This document shows, piece after piece, positions 33,990-38,918 of a stretch of 42,735 nucleotides of DNA. The stretch covers positions 1 to 42,735 of IMG/VR virus record IMGVR_UViG_3300020215_000087; one strand, given 5' to 3'. The translations under genes were made by a program, and so were the position numbers. The stretch comes from a virus. Under the pieces are notes generated by a model that made no database searches, was not told the origin of the DNA, and saw only the letters and a program-made list of their open reading frames with translations. How positions within the stretch are numbered: position 1 is the stretch's first letter; each line of letters opens with the position of its first letter.

Positions 33990-34433
33990 TCAGGCTAGAA
34001 AGGCCTTTGCGTCGAATGTCGGACAGTCCTTCAGCCATTCGCTTTGCTCGACTGTGCCGTCACCGTCTATGTCGGGTGATAAGTCACGATGTCCAAGAAC
34101 TTCGGCTTTAGGGAACTGCGTTAACAGTTCGCGCAGAAGAATCTCAAGGGCCTGGAATTGGCGGAAGGTGAAATTGCATTCAGCTTTGCCATCCTGACCA
34201 ACCCCGCCAACCATGCAAATCCCGATACTACCGGTGTTGTGGCCAGCTACATGGGCGCCTGCTATCTCAATAGGGCGGCCATTCTCACGCAATCCATTAC
34301 GCCGGATAACGTAGTGATACCCAATATCCCGCCAGCCCTTTTCTTTGTGCCACTGGGTAATCTCGGCCTCTCCGATATTCCGGTCGGCTTTCGTGGCGGA
34401 GCAATGGACAACGATCTTGGTTATTGGGCGCAT
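33990..34433 (-). CDS. N-acetylmuramoyl-L-alanine amidase endolysin
   Basis: 147 residues, T7-lysozyme-like amidase_2 domain. Zinc ligands are recognisable: H in IVVHCSAT, H in VLGHRDLSPDIDGDG and C in DCPTFDAK; catalytic Tyr in GYHYVIRRNG and the H in AGAHVAGHN region complete the site. No signal peptide, so it needs a holin. It cuts the amide between MurNAc and L-Ala. ATG 34433 is chosen; the frame is open to a TTG at 34466, but that would pass through the 22-bp-spaced repeats. Confidence 0.9.
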   Translation of the reverse strand: MRPITKIVVHCSATKADRNIGEAEITQWHKEKGWRDIGYHYVIRRNGLRENGRPIEIAGAHVAGHNTGSIGICMVGGVGQDGKAECNFTFRQFQALEILLRELLTQFPKAEVLGHRDLSPDIDGDGTVEQSEWLKDCPTFDAKAFLA

Positions 34434-34489
34434 AAGGTTGACAATAACCCCGCTTAAGGTTGCCAATGTTTCGGCTTAAGGTTGACAAT
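34430..34489 (-). repeat. Three 16-bp direct repeats, 22-bp period, before the amidase
   Basis: On the minus strand ATTGTCAACCTTAAGC occurs at 34474-34489, then ATTGGCAACCTTAAGC at 34452-34467 and ATTGTCAACCTTATGC at 34430-34445. Starts are exactly 22 bp apart (two helical turns), and the last repeat contains the amidase ATG. They could bind a regulator as DNA or as RNA in the late leader. Confidence 0.85.
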
Positions 34490-34560: not shown

Positions 34561-34607
34561 AAGACAAAAACCGCGAATGTTGCCCATTGTTAAGAGGGGT
34601 CGCGGTT
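34561..34607 (-). terminator. Intrinsic terminator inside the late leader (tR'-like)
   Basis: Minus strand: AACCGCGA (34600-34607) and TCGCGGTT (34569-34576) form a perfect 8-bp stem with a 23-nt loop, followed by TTTGTCTT. It lies between the late promoter and the amidase, so late transcription must read through it. Confidence 0.7.
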
Positions 34608-34673: not shown

Positions 34674-34701
34674 ATTATGATTGAGTTTGAGAATAAATCA
34701 A
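34674..34701 (-). promoter_or_regulatory. Late promoter (pR'-like)
   Basis: -35 TTGATT (34696-34701), 16-bp spacer, -10 CATAAT (34674-34679), minus strand. The -35 overlaps the RfaH-like gene's stop. It faces the amidase and all late genes. Confidence 0.6.
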
Positions 34702-35192
34702 GCACTTAGCGGCTCCAGTTGTTTTCGTGGAACCTCTGTAGGAACCGCGTTCCCCATGATGTTGAACAGAACAATAATTCGATCAAACTTCTTTGCTTGT
34801 ACAATTGCCTCGTACCCTTCGAAGGGGCCTGACTTAATTCTCACGGGATCGCCGGGAGAATAATCCCGCTTCGGGATAGTATGGATGCCAAGACTGTCTT
34901 CTTGCTTCCTTAGCATTTCGATCACTGAATCATGGACGACAGCAGGCCAAAGCCCGGCCCGAACCATTGCAACCACCCCGGGAGCTTTCAGGACCGGTCG
35001 AAAGTTGTCCTCACCTGGAGCAAGGCGCACAAAGGCATATCGCGGAAACATGCATTCTGTTTCCTTGGCAACCGATCTCCTCCTATCAACCCAAACCAAA
35101 GGGCAATAAGTTTCGAAGCCCTGGACCCTTAAGCTTACCGATACCGGAATTTCCGACTTAATCTTAGTCTGTACGCAATACCAGTTCTTCAT
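34698..35192 (-). CDS. RfaH/NusG-like transcription antiterminator
   Basis: 164 residues (RfaH: 162). An NGN domain (about 1-100: WYCVQTKIKSE, QGFETYCPLVWV, ECMFPRYAFVRL, KAPGVVAMVRAG) and a C-terminal KOW domain (about 118-164: YSPGDPVRIKSGPFEGYEAIV, FNIMGNAVPTEVPRKQLEPL, each cited in part) follow RfaH more closely than NusG. Such factors bind paused RNA polymerase and prevent termination in long operons. Last gene of the early minus-strand operon and directly upstream of the late promoter and terminator, where lambda encodes Q. Confidence 0.88.
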   Translation of the reverse strand: MKNWYCVQTKIKSEIPVSVSLRVQGFETYCPLVWVDRRRSVAKETECMFPRYAFVRLAPGEDNFRPVLKAPGVVAMVRAGLWPAVVHDSVIEMLRKQEDSLGIHTIPKRDYSPGDPVRIKSGPFEGYEAIVQAKKFDRIIVLFNIMGNAVPTEVPRKQLEPLSA

Positions 35193-38221: not shown

Positions 38222-38559
38222 GCGCGCTCCTTCGGAATTTCCGATAAAGCTCTTTCAACGCTCCACCCTCTGCGCAATCTGGAATGGAGGGTTTGTCTTG
38301 AGATTCGAGCAACAACCGCCCATTCAGCGAGTGTCTTTCGCTGGCCCTCAAACACGAGGAACCGGCTAACCGCATTCCGGCGCAGAGACACCTGTGCCTC
38401 CGGATTAAACCGCGTGTTCTTCCTGAATGGCTCAATAACCTTCTCAACGCTCTCCAGCGTCGGGGGCTCCAACCAATCTCCATTGGCCACAATCTCATGC
38501 GGACTCATTCCGAGTTCCTGGTACATGATTTCGATGGCTAGGCGGTGTTGGGGGGTCAT
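38218..38559 (-). CDS. DNA-binding protein, unknown
   Basis: 113 residues. The C-terminal half contains an HTH-like WAVVARISRQTLHSRLRRGW (about 82-101). The N-terminal half is helical. Coupled to the adjacent genes by ATGA. It could regulate middle transcription or serve replication; not recognised. Confidence 0.6.
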   Translation of the reverse strand: MTPQHRLAIEIMYQELGMSPHEIVANGDWLEPPTLESVEKVIEPFRKNTRFNPEAQVSLRRNAVSRFLVFEGQRKTLAEWAVVARISRQTLHSRLRRGWSVERALSEIPKERA

Positions 38560-38918
38560 TGAAAATCACCAATCTGTTTGCTAACCACGTACCCAGCGCT
38601 AACTCCAAGAACACGTAAAATCCAGCCAAAAATTCGACGTAAATATTTTTCCTTTTTTGGCGACATGTTCGTACGACGATACTTTGATACTTGTGCATTT
38701 TTTGGGACGTCAAGACCGAACAACAATCCTTCTGGGGACACTCCCAAAAATTCAGCGATTTTGCAGACAGACTCTGCCGATGGAGTCGCCCTTCCTCTTA
38801 CCATGTTGCTTATTGACTGCTGAGAAAGACCGGTTGCCTCCGCAAGCTGCATTTGAGACAACTTGTGAAATCGCATGAGAAACTCTAGATTTTCCGAAAA
38901 CGCTTTATTTGATCTCAT
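38556..38918 (-). CDS. XRE-family repressor-like protein
   Basis: 120 residues. HTH at about 19-45 (SQMQLAEATGLSQQSISNMVRGRATPS, cited in part) followed by a standard Cro/CI helix pair, then a basic, partly hydrophobic C-terminus (RRIFGWILRVLGVSAGYVV, about 93-111). A third Cro/CI-type protein besides those at 3.2-3.9 kb. It follows the YdaU gene by 10 bp, so it may modulate replication or late genes. Confidence 0.7.
   Translation of the reverse strand: MRSNKAFSENLEFLMRFHKLSQMQLAEATGLSQQSISNMVRGRATPSAESVCKIAEFLGVSPEGLLFGLDVPKNAQVSKYRRTNMSPKKEKYLRRIFGWILRVLGVSAGYVVSKQIGDFQ

Follow-up and report, generated by a model that had tools for sequence, protein, structure and literature searches.

Which molecule recognizes three regularly phased repeats that run into the start codon of a phage endolysin gene, and are they recognized as DNA or as RNA? 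The window, that is, the whole stretch of DNA analysed here (42,735 nt), is a virus contig of 42.7 kb that encodes a P22-type portal and has leftward late genes. On its minus strand, ATTGNCAACCTTAWGC occurs as a trio with exact 22-bp spacing (34489-34430), and the last repeat reaches the ATG of the endolysin gene.

Repeat array at the endolysin start

Features of the leader and its surroundings:
33990-34433, minus strand: endolysin, T7-lysozyme-like Amidase_2, 147 aa, first gene downstream of the leader (PF01510, 1.4e-14; phrog_822, 7e-60)
34430-34445, minus strand: repeat copy 3, ATTGTCAACCTTATGC; core at 34444-34433, with the endolysin ATG (34433-34431) inside the repeat
34452-34467, minus strand: repeat copy 2, ATTGGCAACCTTAAGC; core at 34466-34455
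34474-34489, minus strand: repeat copy 1, ATTGTCAACCTTAAGC; core TTGTCAACCTTA at 34488-34477
34460-34489, plus strand: weak promoter-like match, TTGCCA-18-GACAAT, in two repeat copies (9/12), pointing away from the endolysin; counterpart of the promoter in host arrays
34569-34606, minus strand: abiF-like RNA hairpin with a terminator-like T run, outside the array (Rfam abiF, 25.5 bits; gathering threshold 37)
34698-35192, minus strand: NusG/RfaH-like antiterminator gene, upstream of the leader (PF02357; phrog_6386)

The start-to-start intervals of the three copies are 22 and 22, and the array is the top tandem repeat of the entire record (TRF period 22, score 73). Elsewhere in the record no further copies of the 16-bp repeat were found at three or fewer mismatches (shuffled expectation 0.28). 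None of 100 shuffles of the record gave three matches to the 16-bp repeat, and at least two 12-bp cores 21-22 bp apart were seen in none of 60 dinucleotide shuffles. The array is not a chance product; the original prediction, which described three 16-bp direct repeats at 22-bp spacing with the ATG in the last one, agrees with the coordinates and the shuffles alike. The conserved unit of the array is a 12-bp core, TTGNCAACCTTA (TAAGGTTGNCAA on the opposite strand), and all three copies in the window fit TAAGGTTGNCAA apart from its variable position. The 9-10 bp separating the cores are largely unconserved from locus to locus, indicating an array of sites rather than a recent duplication. At 34450-34431 (minus strand), no Shine-Dalgarno sequence is evident at the usual distance from the endolysin ATG, and the repeat fills that place.

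Among relatives of the window phage that cover the array site, L170 is the closest (portal 84% identical); it lacks an array at the matching site and carries different genes on either side. The original prediction had looked to the homologous leaders of close relatives for conservation; instead, conservation is seen among many phages, in which the array sits at other late genes. A CI/Cro operator was also considered and rejected, as it needs dyads in the immunity region and the record has no second array copy. The array is like a lambda-type CI/Cro operator in being a phased multi-site phage control region, but it is built of direct repeats instead of dyads and lies in a late leader instead of the immunity region.

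Arrays in other viral sequences

A two-core pattern with free spacing (8-14) matched 33 viral stretches, some of them within coding sequence, against 6 for the reversed-pattern control. In nearly all intergenic viral cases the period is 21 or 22 bp, while the inter-core sequence differs each time, and judging from these sequences TTGNCAACCTTA looks like a selected 12-bp site and not like a spread repeat. A literature search with the repeat sequence returned only chance matches among the matches listed. The array-bearing phage records tested mostly have one array each, usually at a late-gene start, and most have 2-3 copies. The genes downstream include terminase (TerL) cassettes (L018, L078 and L104), P22-type coat genes (L027 and L038), a baseplate wedge gene (L022), and endolysins of three kinds (M15, Hydrolase_2 and Amidase_2) in the window, L108 and L109. 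As in the window, the start codon in L108 lies inside a repeat; in L044 a lysozyme gene is located one gene beyond the gene downstream of the array, and in L032 a tRNA-like sequence, recognized by reading, follows the array. Several array phages have portal and coat lineages in common, and the late gene that bears the array differs between related phages, each lacking it at the site used by the other.

The 22-bp period had suggested replication iterons, which were rejected because the arrays sit at late genes. Looser TTGTCAACC repeats in L084, L091 and L107, apparently within coding sequence (by reading), resemble replication-origin repeats and were set aside as a different phenomenon.

For 13 phage arrays, position and orientation relative to the gene were tallied. 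The arrays lie between 10 nt inside the gene and 71 nt ahead of its start codon, and the orientations are divided 8 versus 5. The presence of both orientations before phage genes favours recognition as DNA and disfavours RNA. An RNA element, acting in antitermination or in translational control of the endolysin, would be in keeping with the extension of the array to the ATG and with an inverted repeat, GGTTATTG/CAATAACC, that puts copy 3 in a loop. However, the fold is no better than those of shuffles (z 0.27), and a constant period of 21-22 bp combined with free spacers is better suited to DNA, so that we consider an RNA element highly unlikely. The array itself had no match in Rfam. A nut site of the boxA-boxB type for RNA antitermination was rejected as well, given the same lack of a stable hairpin and of a fixed orientation. 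The original prediction had taken the phasing as a sign of cooperative binding of either DNA or RNA. Its RNA part is disfavoured, whereas its DNA part is consistent with the two helical turns per period, the exact cores, the free spacers, and the sharing of the array with what is presumed to be the operator of a family of winged-helix proteins.

A candidate bacterial regulator beside the same array

A search through 257 Gb of bacterial and archaeal genome sequence turned up 29 loci with two cores spaced 21-22 bp. At 16 of these bacterial loci the array adjoins a gene for a wHTH-GHKL-DUF4325 protein, or fragments of such a gene; the other 13 are without the regulator gene, and many of them are evidently coding coincidences. 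The regulator (about 345 aa) carries an N-terminal winged helix, an SpoIIAB-like ATPase domain (HATPase_c_2) and DUF4325 (STAS) in one chain. In the AlphaFold2 model, the winged helix spans residues 2-67 (H-H-H-strand-strand, pLDDT about 90) and is followed by a fold with SpoIIAB structures as the best PDB matches, while a search of known structures by sequence yielded weak histidine-kinase matches only. Comparison with defence families likewise gave only weak hits, and DUF4325 is hardly named in the literature searched. The regulator gene is solitary, with no conserved neighbours, and in the regulator-carrying genomes searched the array is present only at this gene, with no second array elsewhere. 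A strict triple pattern gave no match in 369 genomes; as it also missed G001, in which the third copy is imperfect, this result is uninformative on frequency.

The host arrays mostly have three copies, at intervals that are mostly 21 and then 22, with the last copy lying 9-38 nt ahead of the start codon. Within them, TTGACA in copy 1 and GACAAT in copy 2 make up a sigma-70-like promoter, mostly with a 17-bp spacer, so that the host array appears to combine promoter and operator. The window array has the core, the three copies (22, 22) and the start-codon placement of the host operators, and the core of its copy 1 agrees with their consensus. The host operator reads TAAGG...ACAA on the coding strand, with the promoter inside it, whereas the window array is oppositely oriented relative to its gene. 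Given this orientation, and its position across the endolysin start, the window array does not serve as the endolysin promoter. It might instead provide a regulated antisense promoter, formed by two repeats on the plus strand, whose transcript would run into the leader and oppose both the endolysin mRNA and the abiF-like RNA. The TTGCCA-18-GACAAT of the window does recall the TTGACA-17-GACAAT of the host arrays, but 9/12 matches are about chance expectation and the second hexamer is lost in several phage arrays; we regard such a promoter as extremely unlikely.

Among 229 genomes from the class to which G001 belongs, drawn regardless of arrays, 18 were found to have the regulator family. Close family members have the same array, partly degenerate, whereas in distant members it is replaced by direct repeats of another sequence and about the same period, whose motifs were read by eye. 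The repeat changes with the recognition helix: RQAVNKH occurs with TAAGGTTGACAA, the subgroup to whose operators the window array was compared, PQAVNSH with TCCTTTAAGAAA and KQAASRH with GTTGTCGA. By genome, TCCTTTAAGAAA is found in L180, L183 and L184, GTTGTCGA in L182, and TTTACAA-type repeats in L186 and L187. A subsequent search of phages did find TCCTTTAAGAAA arrays. They occur with 22-bp spacing in two phage records of about 89 kb, at L195:9761-9902 (minus strand, 7 or more copies) and at L196:9525-9578 (minus strand). The phage contigs L194 and L198 contain a near-identical copy of the L180 operator with no regulator gene after it, and GTTAGGC-like sequences near these operator copies suggest gene-cassette movement. 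An operator code linking recognition helix and repeat would be directly testable, and would pair phages with hosts by sequence.

Predicted control of late genes by the host

A regulator gene was found neither beside the window array nor anywhere else in the record. Meanwhile, the array-bearing phage records tested, many of them fragments, had no DUF4325, GHKL or whole-family match; since viral records may be fragments, the absence of the regulator is weak evidence for any single phage. With one member as the query, tblastn found no match in INPHARED phages or PLSDB plasmids. As the phage record encodes no such protein, we infer that the binder is host-encoded. A phage-encoded regulator of the same specificity, too divergent for recognition, seems decidedly improbable to us. 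The phage does have HTH proteins, such as that encoded at 38556-38918, and a regulator of its own would be compatible with the portal and coat lineages common to several array phages; yet the array-bearing records compared have no evident DNA-binding regulator family in common with the window phage, the records tested have no DUF4325 or HATPase protein, and the immunity region is without a second array. The binders proposed originally, namely the RfaH-like, CI, Cro and 38556-38918 proteins, thus found no support. For the RfaH-like protein, no match was detected among the array-bearing records compared, and a pattern search of viral contigs for relatives of this NusG-like protein found none.

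The reading that we favour, and to which we would give an even chance, is that the array constitutes a three-site DNA operator for the host-encoded winged helix, GHKL and STAS regulator, by which entry into the lysis/late operon would be blocked. Each 12-bp core would be a site for the winged helix of the regulator, and the 22-bp phasing would bring the bound molecules onto one face of the DNA, allowing cooperative binding. The complex, bound across the endolysin start, would stop RNA polymerase arriving from upstream, which would mean repression rather than activation, and the host of this phage would have to possess the regulator. The ATPase/STAS part would sense a host signal and bring about release, after which the operon would run. 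We suppose, with somewhat less confidence, that several phage lineages independently placed such partner-switch-repressor arrays on a late gene and thereby left it to a host sensor, or to a host defence protein, whether virion assembly and lysis go ahead.

The same regulator could be involved in other ways. As a decoy, the array would draw it off its single chromosomal operator during phage replication, without control of the endolysin. The presence of mostly one array per phage record, at sites differing in related phages, and the long arrays in some phages (the TCCTTTAAGAAA copies of L195) are compatible with a decoy, but the arrays are non-randomly placed, close to where mainly late genes begin, and usually number just 2-3 copies, which makes a decoy unlikely. 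In a further scenario, a CapR-like bacterial protein would recognize the arrays, which would have another function in the phage, and silence the late genes of incoming phages. CapR, which is PLE-encoded and represses capsid expression of phage ICP1 (PMC10448857), is a precedent for such a defence, and the regulator gene is solitary, is restricted to a minority of genomes (18/229) and has in its own operator the only array found in the genome, while the phage targets are late genes. However, the position of the array varies between syntenic phages, so that a phage could lose it, and the hits to defence families are weak; we consider a defence function distinctly unlikely. CapR and the operator reading that we favour are alike in that a phage late gene may be the target of a DNA-binding protein from outside the phage, but CapR has a zinc-finger-type domain and is encoded on a satellite, whereas here the gene is solitary in bacteria and the sites are common to many phages.

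The closest known arrangement is that of Bacillus phage GIL01, in which the late promoter P3 is held by host LexA, together with phage gp7, at tandem LexA boxes (PMC6182141). As for phage operators of the GIL01/LexA type, the array is found at the regulator's own gene in bacteria, and the operator of a host regulator would be present in the phage, in tandem, ahead of late genes. The two differ in that the regulator is LexA in GIL01, whereas here it would be a winged-helix/GHKL/STAS protein with direct 12-bp repeats at 21-22 bp as its sites. The GHKL and STAS folds recall the partner switches SpoIIAB/SpoIIAA and RsbW/RsbV; here, however, they are fused in one chain behind a winged helix. If the reading that we favour is true, a widespread but unstudied class of regulators would gain in the phage late genes its first predicted target beyond its own promoter, and there would be a new host-to-phage control link, comparable to that of LexA except that it acts on late genes.

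abiF-like RNA and neighbouring genes

The original prediction held that nothing else in the leader explains the repeats, a statement to be amended by the abiF-like RNA hairpin at 34606-34569. The equivalent of this hairpin in L170 (L170:3017-3054) scores 26.1 bits and is 92% identical over 52 nt, while the surrounding genes are different. AbiF toxins are neutralised by abiF RNAs (PMC12373285), and an abiF RNA has been reported from a cyanophage (PMC9964418); the orphan abiF-like antitoxin RNA in the late leader is possibly an anti-defence RNA. In the slot of the NusG/RfaH-like gene, L170 has an unrelated 137-aa protein without family matches (L170:2510-2923), perhaps another late regulator. 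Between the abiF-like RNA and the array there is an inverted repeat, GCGGCCC/GGGCCGC, pairing 34559-34553 with 34511-34505 (minus strand). The 19-nt abiF-like core, CCTCTTAACAATGGGCAAC, occurs exactly in other phage contigs, at L221:3671, L223:1546-1564 (minus strand), L224:5172 and L220:4, where it is followed by an apparently tmRNA-like sequence and, in three contigs, preceded by what reads as a tRNA-like end.
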